Below, in pieces: positions 1,234 to 17,672 of a stretch of DNA of 64,000 nt. Every line of letters starts with the position of its first letter. Position 1 is the first letter of the stretch. The stretch lies in contig CALXUG010000003.1 of the NCBI GenBank assembly GCA_944391625.1, positions 1 to 64,000 on the forward strand, read 5' to 3'. The notes beneath the pieces were generated by a model. That model was not told the origin of the DNA. It saw only the letters and a program-made list of their open reading frames with translations, and did not search any database. The DNA is from an uncultured Clostridia bacterium (GTDB taxonomy: Bacteria; Bacillota; Peptococcia; Peptococcales; Peptococcaceae). A program made the position numbers and the translations under genes.

Positions 1234-1476
1234 TCACGCTCCTTTGATTTTTTTGCTCACATCATATAACACCCGTGAAACTTCTTCCACAACTTTGATT
1301 TGCTCCATAACTTTGTCCAATGCAGCATCCAAAACTGCTTCGTATTGCTGATAAAAATCGTCAAGCTGATTATCCTTGAACAATCCATCACCAGTTACAC
1401 AAAGCATTGCTTTCGCCTGCCGTAATTTCAAGCCACTTTGTTCCAGATCATCAGCCATTGTAAAAAAATCAAACAT
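1234..1476 (-). CDS. Hypothetical phage protein (80 aa)
   Basis: A short helical protein (MFDFFTMADDLEQSGLK), predicted mostly alpha, with heptad-like spacing in its C-terminal half (YEAVLDAALDKVMEQIKVVEEVSRVLYDV) suggesting a coiled coil. AAAAGGAGAGATTATT precedes the ATG. It is the first leftward gene after the divergent promoter region at 1477-1578, so it and the downstream genes may form a unit controlled by the adjacent HTH protein. Function unknown. Confidence 0.6.
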   Translation of the reverse strand: MFDFFTMADDLEQSGLKLRQAKAMLCVTGDGLFKDNQLDDFYQQYEAVLDAALDKVMEQIKVVEEVSRVLYDVSKKIKGA

Positions 1477-1492
1477 AATAATCTCTCCTTTT

Positions 1493-1543
1493 TACATACA
1501 TATTGTATGTATATCAATTGCATATAATATAGTACAATCTGTA
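1493..1543. promoter_or_regulatory. Divergent promoter with operator-like palindromes
   Basis: TACATACA-TAT-TGTATGTA (1493-1511) is a perfect 8-bp inverted repeat with a 3-nt spacer. A shorter copy, TACA-ATC-TGTA, sits at 1533-1543. A TATAAT lies between them at 1523-1528. The sites lie between a leftward gene (1476) and a rightward Xre-type gene (1579), the expected place for an operator bound by that Xre protein. The assignment of the regulator is inference. Confidence 0.5.
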
Positions 1544-9517: not shown

Positions 9518-11341
9518 ATGGAAAAACTTTTAGCAGAAATCCAAGATAACATTGATTATATAAATAAAAACTTTAAATACACTAATTTTATACACAAACT
9601 CATATTTGACAACTATGCCAATATAACTAAAGATGAGGTATTAAATTTTACCTTTCCGCTTACTGCATTAGTGGGAAAAAACGGATGTAATAAAACTCGT
9701 GTACTACAAGCACTCTATGGTGTACCAGAAGGAAAAACTGTTGGGGATTTCTGGTTTTCAACATCTTTAGACCCTATTGATGATCGAGATCCTGAGCGAG
9801 GAAATGCCAGATACATTTATGTATACTCTACCGATAAAGATGAAAATGAGAAATTTCCCGTTCATTACAACCGTACACGTAGAGAAAATGATCCTGATTA
9901 CTGGGAAACAAGAGCTTTGACACAAACTTTAAAGACTGAATATGATATACCTAAAGAAATTAAAAGATGTGATCCAATCAAAAAGAACTGTATTTTTATT
10001 GATTCCAAAATAGAATTGAGTGCTTATGATATTTTTTTCAATTTTAATGGTCGCGAGACTGGTAAGCGGACCAACTATCGAGAAAATAAACGCTTCATCA
10101 GAAAGAAATCTGGCTATATTAAGCGCAATATAGAAAAGAAAAATATTAGACCTTCAGCATACAAAAAACCTCAAAATGAAAAACCTATCGAACTTACAAA
10201 TCAACATCTGCAATGGATATCTAGAATATTGGGAAAAGATTATGCTGAAATTATTCAAATTTTCCATAAGCATTATAAATTTTGGGGAGACTCGTTATTT
10301 CTAAATCAAGAATATAGTGAAGCACGAGCTGGCAGTGGTGAATTAAAGGTTGTTAATATAGTGCGGCAAATTTTGGATGCTGAACATCATTCTCTAATTC
10401 TATTGGACGAACCAGAAATCTCATTGCATCCTGGTGCTCAATTACAATTATTAAATTTTTTCTTGGATCAAATACGTAAAAAAAATCACCAAATTGTATT
10501 TACAACGCACTCACCTACAATCATTAAATATTTACCATCTACAGCAATCCGTTTATTTACAAAAAATATGGGAGAAAAGAGTTTTTCTATAAAAGAAAAT
10601 ATCAGCTCTGTTGTAGCATTTTCTGAATTTGGAGAACCTATAGCACAAAAGAAAAATATATTTGTAGAAGATGAAACTGCAAAATTAATTTTGGAAACAG
10701 TAATTCAGGCATCAGAAATTTTAACTGGAGAAGCTTTTAATATTCTTTATACCCCAGGTGGAGCCAATGACCTTATTGTATCTACACTTCCTAACATTAT
10801 GTACTCCCCTGAAAATATGTTTGTAATTTTTGATGGCGATCAAAATCGCCGTTCCGATAACCTGGATTATAAGAAAATACCTCTTGATAAAAGTCATAAT
10901 GAGGAGCAATTTAAAACCGAACTAAAACGAATTATTTTTGGATTAACCGGAACCAACTCGGAAAATATAAGGTTTGCAAAAAACAGTAGTCAAACTACCA
11001 AAGAGGACAATAATATTTTCTTGAATTTTTTAAAATTCTTTGATTCAAATGTCTTTTTCTTACCACAAATGCTACCAGAAGATATCATCTGGAATACAAA
11101 TGTTGACTCTCCATTATTTCAAGTTGATAAAAAAATGTTAGCTTCAATAGATTCTGATACTACAAAAAATTCAAAAAAGAAGCTTTATGCCTATGCAGCT
11201 TTTTTATCTAATGGAAACAACAATGATGCTGGTCAACTTTATACTGTATTGCGTACTCAATTATTAAAATATTTTTCTGATATTAAAAATAATGATTTCA
11301 AAGCTATTGAAATTATGTTAGAATCTATTCAGAATAGTTAA
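9518..11341 (+). CDS. OLD-like AAA/ABC ATPase with Toprim-like C-terminal domain
   Basis: This 607-residue protein has an SMC/ABC-type ATPase split by a long basic insert. The parts are a Walker A region GKNGCNKT (53-60), an ABC signature ARAGSGE (269-275), Walker B LILLDEPE (293-300) and a switch His in FTTHSP (331). The C-terminal half carries VEDETAK (383-389) and FVIFDGDQN (436-443), which resemble the Glu and DxD of the Toprim nuclease domain in OLD-family proteins. Those proteins cut DNA in anti-phage defence. The last Walker A glycine is replaced by Asn58. The gene sits in the lysogeny operon just before a C5 methyltransferase, suggesting a cargo defence pair. The nuclease role is inferred. 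Confidence 0.75.
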   Translation: MEKLLAEIQDNIDYINKNFKYTNFIHKLIFDNYANITKDEVLNFTFPLTALVGKNGCNKTRVLQALYGVPEGKTVGDFWFSTSLDPIDDRDPERGNARYIYVYSTDKDENEKFPVHYNRTRRENDPDYWETRALTQTLKTEYDIPKEIKRCDPIKKNCIFIDSKIELSAYDIFFNFNGRETGKRTNYRENKRFIRKKSGYIKRNIEKKNIRPSAYKKPQNEKPIELTNQHLQWISRILGKDYAEIIQIFHKHYKFWGDSLFLNQEYSEARAGSGELKVVNIVRQILDAEHHSLILLDEPEISLHPGAQLQLLNFFLDQIRKKNHQIVFTTHSPTIIKYLPSTAIRLFTKNMGEKSFSIKENISSVVAFSEFGEPIAQKKNIFVEDETAKLILETVIQASEILTGEAFNILYTPGGANDLIVSTLPNIMYSPENMFVIFDGDQNRRSDNLDYKKIPLDKSHNEEQFKTELKRIIFGLTGTNSENIRFAKNSSQTTKEDNNIFLNFLKFFDSNVFFLPQMLPEDIIWNTNVDSPLFQVDKKMLASIDSDTTKNSKKKLYAYAAFLSNGNNNDAGQLYTVLRTQLLKYFSDIKNNDFKAIEIMLESIQNS

Positions 11342-11365
11342 CGTGTGAAAGGAGGTAAGATTCTA

Positions 11366-12490
11366 TTGAAAGCGATTGATTTATTTTGCGGAGCTGGTGG
11401 ACTCTCTTGTGGTTTGCAAAATGCTGGATTCGAGGTCGCATTAGGAATTGATATTGATGCTAATGCTTTAGCATCGTATAAAAATTATTTTCAAGATACT
11501 GTTACAATAACCGCGGACATTAATGATATTTCAGCCCCAATAATAAGCAGCCTTACAGATCTTACCCCTGGCAGCAATTTTCTATTGGCTGGATGTCCTC
11601 CATGTCAAGGCTTTTCGTCATTAGGAAAACGAGACCCACACGATGAAAAGAATCAACTTGTATACCAATATGTAAGGTTAATACAAGAATTAAAACCCAC
11701 CTTTATACTGATGGAAAATGTTCCTGGAATGAGTAAAAACGTAGGTAAAGAAATATTTCAAAAGGTTATTAATTTATTAAGCAAAAACTATATCGTTGAG
11801 TACGATACTCTAAATGCTGCTGATTTTGGAGTTCCACAAACAAGAAAACGGCTTGTTCTTCATGGTATCCGGAAAGATGTTTATACTTTATTGAAACAAG
11901 AACTAAACAATGCTTTTAGTTTACTACCAGAGCAAACTCATTGTGATCCTAAAAAAAATACAAATAAACAATACGAAAACTGGAGAACAGTTGGTGAAAC
12001 TATCATGGAACTTCCCCCACTTGTAGCCGGTGAAGCTTATAATGGGAATGATATACACAATCACGTTTGTCGTAATCTATCACAGACGAATATTAAACGA
12101 TTAAATTTTGCTCATAATAATGATGGGTCTAGAACCTCTTTACCAGAAGAATATCGTCTACCATGTCATAATGGAGTAACTACATTTAGTGATACTTACG
12201 GTGTTATGCATTTAGATAAGCCTGCACCAACCTTGACAAGCGGTTGTACTACTATTAGTAAAGGTCGTTTTGGACACCCTACACAAAATAGAGGTATTTC
12301 TTTACGAGAAGCTGCCAAACTTCAAACTTTCCCAGATAATTTTGAGTTTATCGGGACGCTTTCCTCGATAAGTCTTCAAATTGGTAATGCGGTCCCACCT
12401 TTATTAGCACAGGCAAGTGCTGAGAAAATTTATCATTACATGACATTAGTTAATAACATAATGAACAAAAATATTAACACAGCTTCATAA
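11366..12490 (+). CDS. DNA (cytosine-5) methyltransferase
   Basis: A 374-residue C5 methyltransferase. Motif I is DLFCGAGGLS (5-14), the catalytic motif IV is GCPPCQGFS (Cys80), motif VI is MENVPG (E117), motif VIII is QTRKRLVLHG and motif X is QIGNAVPPLLAQ. The target-recognition region lies between about 220 and 310 and gives no specificity by eye. The TTG at 11366 is preferred because AAAGGAGG lies 9 nt upstream; the GTG at 11345 starts inside that site. It follows the ATPase gene by 24 bp and is followed by a strong terminator, so both are one unit. It may protect against the ATPase/nuclease or modify phage DNA. Confidence 0.93.
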   Translation: MKAIDLFCGAGGLSCGLQNAGFEVALGIDIDANALASYKNYFQDTVTITADINDISAPIISSLTDLTPGSNFLLAGCPPCQGFSSLGKRDPHDEKNQLVYQYVRLIQELKPTFILMENVPGMSKNVGKEIFQKVINLLSKNYIVEYDTLNAADFGVPQTRKRLVLHGIRKDVYTLLKQELNNAFSLLPEQTHCDPKKNTNKQYENWRTVGETIMELPPLVAGEAYNGNDIHNHVCRNLSQTNIKRLNFAHNNDGSRTSLPEEYRLPCHNGVTTFSDTYGVMHLDKPAPTLTSGCTTISKGRFGHPTQNRGISLREAAKLQTFPDNFEFIGTLSSISLQIGNAVPPLLAQASAEKIYHYMTLVNNIMNKNINTAS

Positions 12491-12493
12491 CTT

Positions 12494-12522
12494 AATAATA
12501 GAGCTCCCGCAGCTCTATTATT
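12494..12522 (+). terminator. Terminator of the lysogeny/cargo operon
   Basis: A perfect 12-bp stem (AATAATAGAGCT paired with AGCTCTATTATT) with a 5-nt loop, ending in a short T run just after the methyltransferase stop. It separates the cargo operon from the recombinase gene, which therefore needs its own promoter. Confidence 0.85.
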
Positions 12523-12563
12523 TTTCACCATTTGCAAGAACATATATTCTTTTTTATTCCCAT

Positions 12564-12593
12564 TTCTATAACCACACTACCAGACATATACTG
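12564..12593 (+). promoter_or_regulatory. Candidate sporulation-type promoter of the recombinase
   Basis: CATATACTG at 12585-12593 fits the CATAnnnT -10 pattern of sigma-E/sigma-K promoters and is identical to the 9-mer upstream of dpaA (16152-16160). TTCTATA lies about 14 bp upstream. No good sigma-A pair is evident in the 90-bp gap. The assignment rests on a short motif and is tentative. Confidence 0.35.
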
Positions 12594-12609
12594 ATATGAG
12601 GTGATTATC

Positions 12610-14202
12610 ATGTCAACGGCAGCAATCTATCTGCGGCAATCAAAAGAAAAAAAGGACAGCGTGTCCATTGAAGCACAACAGGAAAAATGCAATATCATCT
12701 GTCAGCTGAATAACTGGGACTTTATTGCCTATGATGACAAAGGAAAATCGGGCAAGGATTTAAACCGACCGGCTTTTAAACAAATGATGAAAGACATCGA
12801 AGATGGCAAAGTACAGCACATTGTCTGCTATCGGTTGGACAGAATCAGCCGTTCCATGGCCGACTTTTCCAATTTAATTGTTAGCTTGGAGCAATACGGT
12901 GTAGACTTTGTGTCCGCCACCGAAAATTTTGATACCTCCACCCCGCTGGGCCGCGCTATGGTCAATATCATTATGACCTTTGCCCAGCTGGAGCGGGAAA
13001 CCATCACCGAGCGGGTCACAGATAACTATTACTTCCGCGGCAATCAAGGCTATTGGCCCGGCGGCACCGCTCCCTACGGATACCGACTGATTAAAGTAAC
13101 AGACAGCACCGGCAAAAAGCATTCGGCACTGGAAATTGACCCAGAGCAGGCGCAATGGGTGCGCTATATGTACCAATCCTATCTGGAACCAGGCGGCAGC
13201 ATTACAAAGATGCTGAATCATCTGAACGATTTAAAAGTAAAAACCAATCGCAACGCCCAGTGGACCAGCCGAGTCATTGCCGACCTGCTGCAAAAACCGG
13301 TCTACACCAGCAATACCGCCGCCCTGTATGACTACTACAAATTGCAGGATTGCAACATCGTCAACGAGCTGACCGATTTTGACGGCATCGGCTCCCTCAA
13401 CCTTTACGGCAAAACCAACAAAAACGCCAATCGCCACAAGCGCTGCCGGGAAGCCAATGAAATGTATCTGGTTGTCATGAATCACACGCCCATCATCGAG
13501 CCGGAGCTGTGGCTGGCAGTGCAGCGCAAAAAAGCCACCATGCTGCCCAAGTCTTCCCCCCGTTCAGGAACAAGCAAAAACAGCTATCTGACCGGCCTGA
13601 TTCTTTGCGGCAACTGCGGCTATCATGTGTCCATCACCAAACAAACGGGAAATTATCGCGCCTATATGTGTAGCACAAAAAAAAATCGCGGTTGGTTTAC
13701 CTGCCCTGCGCCCAACATTCCGGCCAAACAGCTGGAGGATACCGTTATGGAAGATATGATTCGCCACTTTACCAATCCAGCTATGGTGCAAAAGGTAAAG
13801 GACCATTACAAAAAGCAATCATTCATCACACCGGAACAGCAGCACCAGAAGAACGACCTGGAGCTGCAGCTGTCCCAGATTGACCACGAGATTGATAATC
13901 TTATGCAGGCCGTATCCACCGGCAACCCAACATTACTCAAATATGCCAACCTGCATATCACCGAGCTGGATGCCCAGCGGCAAACTATCTTCAAAGAATT
14001 GCAGCAGTTGGAACTCGAAGAATCCCAGCAAGGAAACCTGCAAAGTGCTTATCAATTTGTATACGGCTATCTGGACAACTTTGCCGAAAAAATACGCTCT
14101 GCCGACTTCGATGAAATGAAAATGATCTGTAATATGTTAATCTCACAGATTACCGTCAACCGCAAAGAAGACGGCGCCACAGAGATTGTTTATACGATAT
14201 AA
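12610..14202 (+). CDS. Large serine recombinase (prophage integrase)
   Basis: A 530-residue recombinase. The resolvase domain starts AAIYLRQS (catalytic Ser11) and includes YRLDRISRS and the ENFDTSTPLGRAMVNI and ERETI patterns. A Recombinase domain follows (about 160-300; NQGYWPGGTAPYGY), then a zinc ribbon (LCGNCGYH near 335 with a distal FTC) and a coiled-coil region rich in Gln/Leu. Such enzymes integrate and excise phages and the sigK skin element. GAGGTGATTATC precedes the ATG at 12610. It points at the attachment junction 54 bp beyond its stop, and its base composition is closer to the host than to the AT-rich cargo. Confidence 0.95.
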   Translation: MSTAAIYLRQSKEKKDSVSIEAQQEKCNIICQLNNWDFIAYDDKGKSGKDLNRPAFKQMMKDIEDGKVQHIVCYRLDRISRSMADFSNLIVSLEQYGVDFVSATENFDTSTPLGRAMVNIIMTFAQLERETITERVTDNYYFRGNQGYWPGGTAPYGYRLIKVTDSTGKKHSALEIDPEQAQWVRYMYQSYLEPGGSITKMLNHLNDLKVKTNRNAQWTSRVIADLLQKPVYTSNTAALYDYYKLQDCNIVNELTDFDGIGSLNLYGKTNKNANRHKRCREANEMYLVVMNHTPIIEPELWLAVQRKKATMLPKSSPRSGTSKNSYLTGLILCGNCGYHVSITKQTGNYRAYMCSTKKNRGWFTCPAPNIPAKQLEDTVMEDMIRHFTNPAMVQKVKDHYKKQSFITPEQQHQKNDLELQLSQIDHEIDNLMQAVSTGNPTLLKYANLHITELDAQRQTIFKELQQLELEESQQGNLQSAYQFVYGYLDNFAEKIRSADFDEMKMICNMLISQITVNRKEDGATEIVYTI

Positions 14203-14206
14203 AAAT

Positions 14207-14241
14207 AGCCTTGAACCCGGTCTATATCTGGGCTCAAGGCT
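14207..14241 (+). terminator. Terminator of the recombinase gene
   Basis: Inverted repeat AGCCTTGAACCC / GGGCTCAAGGCT (11 of 12 pairs, 11-nt loop) followed by TTTATTTCTTTT. It lies on the phage side of the attachment junction and inside the fused reading frame of the truncated deacetylase. Confidence 0.8.
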
Positions 14242-14275
14242 TTATTTCTTTTAGTGTCTAGTGTATCAATCGACC
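14242..14275. other. Prophage attachment site (attR-type junction)
   Basis: The host deacetylase frame is family-like down to WSIDTLD (codon for Asp180 at 14258-14256). From 14255 leftwards it reads TKRNKALSP..., unlike the family, and soon enters the recombinase terminator. The crossover must lie within a few bases of 14256. Serine recombinases use a 2-nt core inside roughly 40-50 bp sites, so the full attR spans both sides. The other junction is outside the window. Confidence 0.7.
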
Positions 14276-14816
14276 ATTGTATTGGATAAAAACCTTTATT
14301 ACGCAGTACATCAATACTTTTGTTATCATACTCTCCAAATGGAAAGCGGAATAAGATAGGTTGATATCCTGTCACAGTTTCTATCATCTGATAATTACCA
14401 TCCACTTCTTTGGCTGCTTCGTCTGCACTAATCTGACTCATATGAGGATGGGAAACACTATGCATAGCAATTTCATGTCCGGCAGCAGCAATTTTCCTCG
14501 CCATATCCGGGTAATCCTCTAACCAGATATTTGTCAGAAAAAATGTCGCTTTAACATCATATTTTTCTAATGTGTTTAAAATTTTCTCCGTCCGTTCACA
14601 GCCCCAAGCTGCATCAAAAGAGATAGATACTATTTTTTCATCAGTTTCCACAAAATAGATAGGAACTTTTTTCTCCACTGCAGCAGTCGCCGCTGAAGCT
14701 GATTGACTCATATGCTGTAGCCCCATTCCGGTTAAAAATCCTGCAATCATAATCAAGACAGCGCCTAGAAACAAAATTAATTTCTTTTTCACCATACTTC
14801 CCCCTCTCTTTTGTTC

Positions 14817-14840
14817 ATTTTATGCATCAACAGAAAAAAA
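14817..14840 (-). promoter_or_regulatory. Candidate sigma-E-like promoter of the deacetylase
   Basis: On the minus strand CATAAAAT (14824-14817) fits the sigma-E -10 (CATACAAT) with one mismatch. A GTTATT-containing stretch lies about 15 bp upstream. Weak evidence alone, but it fits a mother-cell gene. Confidence 0.25.
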
Positions 14841-15076
14841 ATAACAAAGTTCTCAAAGGGAATCGGAGCGCCTTTACTACAAAAAACAATTTATTTTCAA
14901 AATTAACTCTCCCAACAAAACATCTAAATCCTTATAAAGCAACAAAAAAATAGATGTTTCCCACAATATGCAGTCAACATCCATGCATGGATTCTAATAA
15001 TTCCAATATTTTATGCAGATTCAAAAAATCGAGCGCAAAGAAAAGTCCCTTTTCTGATCGACAAACTGCACATCAT
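14841..15076. other. Intergenic gap without a recognised gene
   Basis: AT-rich spacer between the interrupted deacetylase and the DMT transporter, both on the minus strand. I see no convincing frame, RNA gene or terminator in it. Confidence 0.5.
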
Positions 15077-16045
15077 TTAATGCGTTGATCGATGTTGCAA
15101 CAAACCTGGCAAAATATTGGTCATAGAGCCAGCCAAAATAAACAAAATTCCAACCATCATATGCAGCGGAATTTCTTCATGAAGAATCAAAAAAGCCAAA
15201 ATCGGAGCCAGAACCGGTTTAAAGAAAAATACCAGTGCTGCTGTATTGGCCGACGTTTTTTCCATAGCAGTAAAATAGGAGGCAAAACCCAAGCCTGTCA
15301 CTCCCAGATAAACAAATACTACTACCGGCAAATTTTGCAGCGTATACCCAGACAAAAATGGCACATAAGCAAAATTCTGTAAACCATGCGCAATTAAAAA
15401 ATCGGCCACAACCGGAATATGGCCAATGGCTGCCAAACCAATCAATTCTATGCTACCAAATAAAAAGCCAAAGCAGGTAACGGTCAAACCGCCAAATTTA
15501 TAACATTTTCGTTTTCCCAGCACGGTATACAAAGCAAAGAGCAATGTTGCCGATAAAGTAAAAACAACCCCGCTGAACGCAATGTCCATATTCCACGGCG
15601 CAATAATGATGACAATACCCACAATATCCAATAACAATGCAGCAATGTTGCGTCCATGGATCGGCTCCCGCAAAATCAGATAAGCCAATACCATGACAAA
15701 TAACGGATTACTGCTGAACAAAACAGCGACCACAGAAGCATTGGCATGCAAAGTGGCCAGTTGATATAAAGTCATACTAATGACAATTCCGATGGTGCCT
15801 AAAAATGCAAAATAACGCAAGTCTGCTTTTTCCATATGAATATCCTCTGCCGCCAAACGTCGCAACAACCGCAATGCAAAAGGCAGCAGCACCAAACCGC
15901 CAAATAAAAAACGAGAGAATGTAACCTGAATCGGATTCAGATCATTCCCAATAAATTTTAAAGCAATTTCCATTAAACTAAATAAAACAGTGGTAACAGC
16001 AATACAAAAATACCCCTGTTTCCGATTGGTTGTTTCCACAATCAT
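15077..16045 (-). CDS. EamA/DMT-family exporter
   Basis: A membrane protein of about 322 residues with ten hydrophobic segments arranged as two EamA repeats (first repeat opening FCIAVTTVLFSLMEIALKFIGNDLNPIQVTFSRFLFGG; second opening GVVFTLSATLLFALYTVLGKR). Members export amino acids, purines or other metabolites; the substrate cannot be told. I place the start at the ATG at 16045; a GTG two codons later has better spacing to AAGAGG. The gene is divergent from dpaA, which leaves 146 bp for both promoters. Confidence 0.88.
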   Translation of the reverse strand: MIVETTNRKQGYFCIAVTTVLFSLMEIALKFIGNDLNPIQVTFSRFLFGGLVLLPFALRLLRRLAAEDIHMEKADLRYFAFLGTIGIVISMTLYQLATLHANASVVAVLFSSNPLFVMVLAYLILREPIHGRNIAALLLDIVGIVIIIAPWNMDIAFSGVVFTLSATLLFALYTVLGKRKCYKFGGLTVTCFGFLFGSIELIGLAAIGHIPVVADFLIAHGLQNFAYVPFLSGYTLQNLPVVVFVYLGVTGLGFASYFTAMEKTSANTAALVFFFKPVLAPILAFLILHEEIPLHMMVGILFILAGSMTNILPGLLQHRSTH

Positions 16046-16132
16046 AACCTCTTTTCTTCTGCACTGCCTATCATTATAAGCCTCCCCTGTAAAAAAAACA
16101 ATCATTCCATGCACAATCTTTTTCATCCCACT

Positions 16133-16160
16133 CACCAATTATCCGAGGCTTCATATACTG
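16133..16160 (+). promoter_or_regulatory. Candidate sigma-K-like promoter of dpaA
   Basis: CATATACTG (16152-16160) fits the sigma-K/sigma-E -10, and CACC (16133-16136), 15 bp upstream, resembles the sigma-K -35 (AC core). In Bacillus subtilis the dipicolinate synthase operon is sigma-K dependent, so the placement makes sense. Short motifs, tentative. Confidence 0.4.
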
Positions 16161-16191
16161 ATTAGTATGTAATGAAAGGAGATGCTCTACT

Positions 16192-17055
16192 ATGTCTTAT
16201 CCTACGATTGCAGTTATGGGCGGGGACTTGCGGCAAAAATGGCTTGCGTATACATTGGCACAGCAAAATCTTCTCTCCGCAGTATATGCACTGCCAGAGT
16301 CTCCCCAGATAGATGCAGCAGTCTTATCAAATCCGGAAGCATTAAGTCAGTATCAATGCGTTATAGGACCAGTACCTCTGGCACGCAATGGGGCAGTTGT
16401 TTTACCTTCAGAAACGCAACCGCTCTATCTGACTGAGTTACTGCAACGATTACAACCTGGCCAATTACTTGCTGGCGGGAATCTGCCTGCCGATTTTATT
16501 CAGCAATGCCATCAAAAGAACATCATCACCTACGACTTTATGCAATCCCCTGAACTAGCTCTGGCCAATGCAGAGATTACCGCCGAAGGCATGATCGCCG
16601 TTCTGCTGCAGCATACACCTTATATCTTACAAAACACCGCTCTGTTGTTATTGGGCTATGGCCGCTGCGGCATGATACTGGCTCAAAAACTGACAGCTCT
16701 GGGCTGCCATGTCAGTATTTGTGAAACCGATGCCCTGAAACGCAGTCTGGCTTGTTCTTTTGGCTACACCGTTTTAGCGCCTGAAGCACTGCCAGCTATT
16801 CTACCGGATTGCGAGCTGCTGGTCAATACAGTACCATCTTTGCTACTTACCTACGATCTGTTACAACTGTTGCCATCACAGGCAATGCTGTTTGACCTGG
16901 CCAGCGCCCCAGGCGGCATCGACAAAAACGCAGCAGAGCAACTTTCACTCTATTATCAGAGCTGCCCCGGCCTGCCCGGCAAAATTGCACCACAAACTGC
17001 TGGAGAATTATTGGCCAAAGATTTTCTCCGTTACCTTAACACCAATCCATTTTGA
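16192..17055 (+). CDS. dpaA: Dipicolinate synthase subunit A
   Basis: A 287-residue protein that with DpaB makes dipicolinic acid from a dihydrodipicolinate-pathway intermediate in the mother cell; the product fills the spore core with calcium. The N-terminal domain (MSYPTIAVMGGDLRQKWLAYTLAQ) is the DpaA signature. The central Rossmann segment LLLLGYGRCGMILAQKLTALGCHVSICET (about 152-180) binds NAD(P)H. The C-terminal ASAPGGID and PGLPGKIAPQTAGELLA are also typical. AAAGGAG precedes the ATG. dpaB follows after 14 bp. Confidence 0.93.
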   Translation: MSYPTIAVMGGDLRQKWLAYTLAQQNLLSAVYALPESPQIDAAVLSNPEALSQYQCVIGPVPLARNGAVVLPSETQPLYLTELLQRLQPGQLLAGGNLPADFIQQCHQKNIITYDFMQSPELALANAEITAEGMIAVLLQHTPYILQNTALLLLGYGRCGMILAQKLTALGCHVSICETDALKRSLACSFGYTVLAPEALPAILPDCELLVNTVPSLLLTYDLLQLLPSQAMLFDLASAPGGIDKNAAEQLSLYYQSCPGLPGKIAPQTAGELLAKDFLRYLNTNPF

Positions 17056-17069
17056 AAGGATGATGCCTT

Positions 17070-17672
17070 ATGACCTTTGATTTTCACGATAAAACCATTG
17101 GAGTTGCTGTTACCGGTTCCTTCTGTACCTACAAAAATGTTTTTGAAGAACTGGATCGCTTAGCCCAAACAGGGGCCTCCCTTTATACCATTTTTTCTGA
17201 CAATGCCTACAAAACCGACAGTCGTTTTGGAAAAGCAGAAACATTTTTGCAGAAAGCCAAAGAAATCACCGGCAGAGAACCAATCACAACTATTCCAGAT
17301 GCCGAACCCATCGGGCCCAAAGCATTGTTTGATATTCTGCTCATCGCACCTTGCACCGGAAACACTTTGTCAAAACTGGCCAACGGTATCTCTGATACAC
17401 CAGTTCTCATGGCAGCCAAAGCCCATTTACGCAACAACAAACCGCTGGTTATTTCTCTTTCCACCAATGATGCTCTGGGAATGAATTTAAAAAATATTGG
17501 TATTTTGCTGAATACAAAAAATATTTACTTTGTTCCTTTCGGACAGGATAACTATTTGAAAAAGCCAAACTCTATGATTGCGCACACCAATCTGATTCCT
17601 GAAACCATTGAACAGGCTTTGCTGGGCAAACAAATTCAGCCGGTAATCCGCAGCCCTTATCCAGCAGAATAA
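17070..17672 (+). CDS. dpaB: Dipicolinate synthase subunit B (flavoprotein)
   Basis: A 200-residue flavoprotein subunit of dipicolinate synthase. KTIGVAVTGSFCTYKNVFEEL is the flavoprotein nucleotide-binding start, followed by ILLIAPCTGNTLSKLANGISDTPVLMAAKAHLRNNKPLVI, a hallmark of DpaB and related decarboxylase-like flavoproteins. Together with dpaA it is strong evidence that the organism makes endospores. GAAAGGATGATGCCTT provides the ribosome-binding site. asnB begins 20 bp later. Confidence 0.93.
   Translation: MTFDFHDKTIGVAVTGSFCTYKNVFEELDRLAQTGASLYTIFSDNAYKTDSRFGKAETFLQKAKEITGREPITTIPDAEPIGPKALFDILLIAPCTGNTLSKLANGISDTPVLMAAKAHLRNNKPLVISLSTNDALGMNLKNIGILLNTKNIYFVPFGQDNYLKKPNSMIAHTNLIPETIEQALLGKQIQPVIRSPYPAE

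Follow-up and report, generated by a model that had tools for sequence, protein, structure and literature searches.

A prophage with a large serine integrase splits a PdaB-type deacetylase gene, a probable sporulation gene, in a Peptococcaceae-like bacterium

A prophage that interrupts a gene of a spore-forming host may have killed that gene, or it may give it back by excision when spores are made. This question is raised by a polysaccharide deacetylase gene of an uncultured Clostridia bacterium that stops beside a prophage-encoded serine recombinase. We analysed the 64,000-nucleotide stretch that carries it (hereafter the window), the opening 64 kb of contig C3 (171 kb) in a genome, G000, of 74 contigs and 2.97 Mb, 96% complete, with Peptococcaceae MAGs as its closest named relatives. 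A preliminary description of the window had proposed a regulated split gene rather than a dead one, in a spore-forming host with dpaA and dpaB nearby. In the genome, sigE, sigF, sigG, sigK and spoIVA are all present, the four sigma factor genes are intact and sigK is uninterrupted. The neighbouring dipicolinate synthase genes were also recovered, dpaB scoring above its curated cut-offs. The adjacent dpaA-like protein (16192-17055) falls below both dpaA cut-offs and appears as a divergent subunit A.

The truncated deacetylase ORF begins at 14795 on the minus strand and encodes 201 aa. Its 5' part matches Pfam Polysacc_deac_1 (E=6e-35), with PdaB as the best NCBIfam model. Intact relatives clearly exceed this length, the nearest having about 249-277 aa, and their frame runs on for 70-90 residues beyond WSIDSLDW. 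The frame had been described as cut right after WSIDTLD. An interruption does lie at that place, but the other junction, when compared, reveals that host sequence already stops after WSI-D, at the core 14266-14267, and that the ‘TLD’ codons are phage attP sequence resembling the host ‘SLD’. Alignment to solved deacetylases puts the split within CE4 motif 4 (D-x-x-D-W) and leaves the truncated ORF without motif 5 (L-x-H, here ILCHNNG); these motif assignments partly follow the usual CE4 motif pattern. Because it is split in motif 4 and lacks motif 5, the truncated product should be inactive.

The recombinase gene abuts the junction and points at it, as previously described. It is intact, it stops 63 bp short of the core, and its product has the resolvase catalytic, Recombinase and zinc-ribbon domains (PF00239, PF07508, PF13408) of a large serine integrase. 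SprA/YokA of SPbeta is the nearest solved structure, at a distant level of similarity. No relative of this integrase was found in the viral contigs searched. A 56% identical integrase is encoded in another genome, G009 (L055:6700-8705, G009:C100), by a prophage that has the same GA-CAGT core and ends in another ORF, which matches nothing. The N-terminal reading frame of this second integrase starts late and may be damaged. Its contig also has a deacetylase gene, and we considered whether it marked the same locus. This was rejected, as that deacetylase is intact 22 kb away and the phage ends in a different gene. With the G009 phage in another gene, this integrase group need not be tied to sporulation genes.

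The 3' half of the deacetylase gene was not found within the window. When the entire genome was searched with the C-terminal portion of the deacetylase of a congener, one strong match came up, an open frame of 68% identity on the minus strand at C1:169638-169874; the rebuilt gene, used as query, placed the 3' part at C1:169620-169895. The missing part was thus found at the left prophage end, on contig C1, in frame and free of stops, although it starts with Trp-Met after the junction and not with the Trp-Lys that had been predicted. Both gene parts are intact and lesion-free, and no second copy of either half was found in the genome. When the halves are joined at a 2-bp core, GA, an in-frame gene of 265 aa results. 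The rebuilt junction, WSIDSLDWMES, is identical in the intact copies of three congeners (G003, G004 and G005).

Read in the sense of the gene, the right junction is ...TGGTCGATT-GA-TACACTAGACACTAAAAGAAAT (gene to phage) and the left junction is CTTTCTTTTGGTGTCTAGGGTG-GA-CAGTTTGGACTGGATGGAATC... (phage to gene), with only GA common to attL and attR. The gene-to-gene join gives ...TGGTCGATT GA CAGTTTGGACTGGATGGAA..., in frame, and the phage-to-phage join gives attP, CTTTCTTTTGGTGTCTAGGGTG GA TACACTAGACACTAAAAGAAAT. The attP arms around GA form an inverted repeat matching at 18 of 22 positions. This symmetry is not due to chance, since none of 100,000 shuffles reached it. Inverted-repeat arms around a 2-bp core are the usual form of attP for a large serine integrase. 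Excised forms, attB or attP, were sought in the assembly and in the viral contigs, and none was seen. A half-site match in viral contig L085 was rejected as the terminator of an unrelated phage.

Table 1. Features of the split deacetylase locus. Positions are those of the window unless a contig is named.
Feature	Position	Strand	Basis
Right part of the prophage, running off the end of contig C3	1..14265	.	gene content
Large serine integrase, 530 aa	12610..14202	+	PHROG 95; Resolvase, Recombinase and Zn-ribbon domains
Prophage-encoded end of the truncated deacetylase ORF (TLDTKRNKALSPDIDRVQGYFYIV), replacing the end of motif 4 and motif 5	14190..14265	-	
attR; core GA (TC on the plus strand) 14266-14267; phage arm TACACTAGACACTAAAAGAAAT 14244-14265	14240..14292	-	
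PdaB-type polysaccharide deacetylase, host 5' part to WSID; CE4 motifs 1-3	14268..14795	-	
Deacetylase upstream region: TTATT-N15-CATAAAAT, CATA box 29 nt before the start codon, common to family members	14796..14850	-	
dpaA-like gene and dpaB (dipicolinate synthase subunits), neighbouring sporulation genes	16192..17672	+	profile scores
Deacetylase 3' part at the other prophage end	G000:C1:169620-169884	-	in frame, without stops
Left part of the prophage	G000:C1:169887-197151		

An empty site is present in G005, a genome of the same genus (99% complete), as a single intact deacetylase ORF. Its neighbours are those flanking the C1 half in our genome: a thioesterase, a nicotinamidase-like gene and a dicarboxylate carrier. 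Among 46 genomes of the class, the gene is split in G000 only. The other genomes with an ortholog have it uninterrupted, except G006, whose copy ends with its contig. In a sample of 398 genomes of the phylum, orthologs reach the C terminus among the matches listed. As a single genome carries the split, its persistence over long times is conjectural, and this was counted against timed excision.

The C3 and C1 sides together amount to at least 41.5 kb of tailed-phage prophage. The C3 side encodes DnaD-like, SSB and RecT proteins, a RecE-like exonuclease, repressors, an M78 peptidase, an AAA/TOPRIM-like ATPase and a C5 DNA methyltransferase, in addition to the integrase. On the C1 side, minus-strand genes encode a DNA methyltransferase, endolysin, holin, baseplate, tail sheath, major head and head-morphogenesis proteins. 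Portal and terminase homologues were sought across the assembly and none was found; contigs C1 and C3 do not overlap and both end inside phage DNA, and the missing genes may lie in the assembly gap. At 9518-12490, between repressor and integrase, the AAA ATPase has a TOPRIM-like/OLD-like profile (PADLOC HEC-04, ATPase-Toprim) and adjoins the C5 DNA methyltransferase; the pair resembles a defence or moron cassette carried by the prophage. At the end of C1, the final 5 kb (G000:C1:191900-197151; L051 about 11900-17151) holds a plus-strand replication module, Erf-like/DnaD-like/DnaC, with a GC content of 0.50-0.56 and no skew, which abuts the minus-strand head genes where portal and terminase would be expected. 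It could be a chimeric assembly, a second phage or a rearranged part of the prophage, and has no bearing on the two junctions.

Is the interrupted gene a sporulation gene? PdaB (TIGR02764) is the best model both for the rebuilt protein (192.9 bits) and for the intact congener (199.8 bits). As both scores are under the curated cut-off of this model (237.4 bits), we call the protein PdaB-type and not PdaB. YlxY (TIGR02873) gave 148 bits, below its curated cut-off of 391.5 bits. The split gene is the genome's only PdaB-type deacetylase gene. A second deacetylase gene, on contig C8, is YlxY-leaning, and congeners have such a copy beside their PdaB-type gene too, so that we regard it as a paralog rather than a spare copy.

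Presence of the gene follows that of spoIVA. Among the 46 genomes of the class, 31 have both, 3 have spoIVA only, 1 has the gene only and 11 have neither (Fisher p = 3e-7, uncorrected for shared ancestry). The sole gene-positive, spoIVA-negative genome is 68% complete. Upstream of the gene, the box CATANNNT[A/G] was found at 12-50 nt in 9 of 32 orthologs, against 0.7 expected from shuffles. It is present in 7 of the 8 family members, all 8 of which have CATA at that place. This box resembles the -10 element recognised by sporulation sigma factors of B. subtilis. In that species, pdaB is listed among the genes of the sigmaE regulon, with sporulation of the mutant given as 5% (PMC4703394). SpoIIID also binds in the upstream region of this gene, which was formerly called ybaN (PMC517825). 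The split gene is therefore probably a mother-cell sporulation gene.

Signals inside the element that could govern excision were less clear. A directionality factor was sought overlapping the integrase start, as skr does in skin, or beside attL, and only tiny unconvincing ORFs were found. Scanning the prophage for sigmaE and sigmaK promoters gave an overall result near chance level. A CATA motif before the integrase has a chance rate of 2.7% per slot and nearly coincides with the ribosome-binding site, and the related integrase of G009 lacks it. An exact sigmaE-type match, ATATT-N16-CATACAAT, for which 0.03 are expected in the element, is present at 1502-1530 (minus strand), 25 nt before an 80-aa ORF (1234-1476, minus strand). 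The match lies between divergent genes, where a strong sigma-70 promoter and palindromes overlap with it, and the region looks like an early operator. The 80-aa ORF is a possible lead to the directionality factor.

The locus has much in common with SPbeta in spsM of B. subtilis (SprA/SprB), where a tailed-phage prophage with a large serine integrase also splits a sporulation gene that excision restores exactly. It differs in the type of phage, in the distant integrase and in its PdaB-type deacetylase target, and timed excision is proposed here by analogy only. With skin, in sigK of B. subtilis and Clostridioides difficile, it shares a serine recombinase adjoining the junction and a mother-cell gene in two in-frame parts. 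However, skin is defective; here sigK is uninterrupted, and the interrupted gene encodes an enzyme. Serine-integrase temperate phages also insert in genes outside this setting, as Listeria A118 does in comK. Such phages likewise have an attP inverted repeat, a 2-bp core and an excision that restores the gene; the present target differs in being associated with sporulation. Other intervening elements occupy sporulation genes in other hosts, with targets different from ours: vfbin in spoVFB (dpaB) of Bacillus weihenstephanensis, gin in gerE, yin in yabG of Clostridium botulinum, and phi3T/phi12-5 in kamA (PMC5595907, PMC10747680, PMC6957869). Known intervening elements are almost always in mother-cell genes (PMC6957869). 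When tested, those in sigK, spsM, spoVFB and gerE were excised during sporulation (PMC5595907, PMC4191935), and excision of the yabG element depended on growth phase (PMC10747680). We found no intervening element in a polysaccharide deacetylase gene in the literature searched, in which subscription papers were thinly covered. Thus the class of mechanism is known, and the target gene and the lineage appear to be new.

Taken from the sequences, these observations support a precise, reversible split of a probable mother-cell sporulation gene. The prophage's own large serine integrase would have put it into the motif 4 codons of the PdaB-type deacetylase gene, leaving the 5' part short of motif 5 and severing the 3' part from its promoter. 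Integrase and directionality factor would together excise the prophage, and the two parts would rejoin with no base lost or gained, giving back the 265-aa enzyme. Insertion would inactivate the enzyme and excision would restore it. If the prophage were excised in the mother cell as spores form, in the way of SPbeta and spsM, the lysogen would complete its spores and the spore chromosome would retain the prophage. The regulated split gene proposed at the outset is upheld as regards a precise and reversible split, open halves, an intact adjacent integrase, a host with all four sporulation sigma factors and a target that tracks sporulation, but its timing comes by analogy. Any phage that enters a gene by means of a serine integrase should produce this anatomy, so that ‘skin-like’ here denotes a plausible behaviour. 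With weak promoter evidence inside the element and the analogy to known systems, we put excision timed to the mother cell at close to an even prospect. The fuller proposal is that a PdaB-type spore-cortex deacetylase of a gut Peptococcaceae-like bacterium is controlled by a prophage excised in the course of development, at a target and in a lineage unreported before; we make it tentatively and at a little under even confidence.

The same data could reflect an ordinary temperate prophage, for which a conserved motif of a sporulation gene happens to serve as attB, and which excises only on phage induction. This is a realistic possibility, though we would not call it probable. Genes for lysis, tail and capsid are present in the prophage, as is a repressor/early module; no convincing promoter of the sporulation type was seen before the integrase, and the related G009 phage is located elsewhere. 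Lysogens might then sporulate without the deacetylase, poorly or with an altered cortex, or lean on the YlxY-leaning paralog, whose existence fits this reading. Against it stands the target itself, a probable mother-cell gene, of a class for which excision proved regulated when tested (spsM, sigK, spoVFB, gerE, yabG). The prophage might instead be defective and locked, with its excision parts lost and a host that has lost the deacetylase or some sporulation efficiency. The failure to find portal and terminase homologues and the odd opposite-strand module of higher GC at the C1 end would fit, but the missing genes may simply fall in the assembly gap, and integrase, att sites, both gene parts and all sporulation sigma genes are intact; we consider this unlikely. 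Finally, the two halves might not be the ends of one insertion at all, as C1 and C3 end in phage DNA without overlap and the C1 tail may be chimeric. Such an artefact is very improbable, given that a 2-bp core lets the halves rejoin in frame and the phage arms yield the attP inverted repeat, that the C1-side neighbours are those of the intact G005 locus, and that neither half has another copy in the genome.

The locus also provides a new integrase, clean and complete with attB and attP. Should excision prove not to be timed, the prophage deprives its host of a sporulation enzyme, and the locus would be a case of a phage-imposed sporulation defect. If excision is timed to the mother cell, phages would have independently adopted another mother-cell gene, probably one for a cortex-modifying enzyme, as a safe harbour, and this new case far from Bacillus, open to direct testing, would broaden the rule by which mother-cell genes are the favoured targets of such elements.
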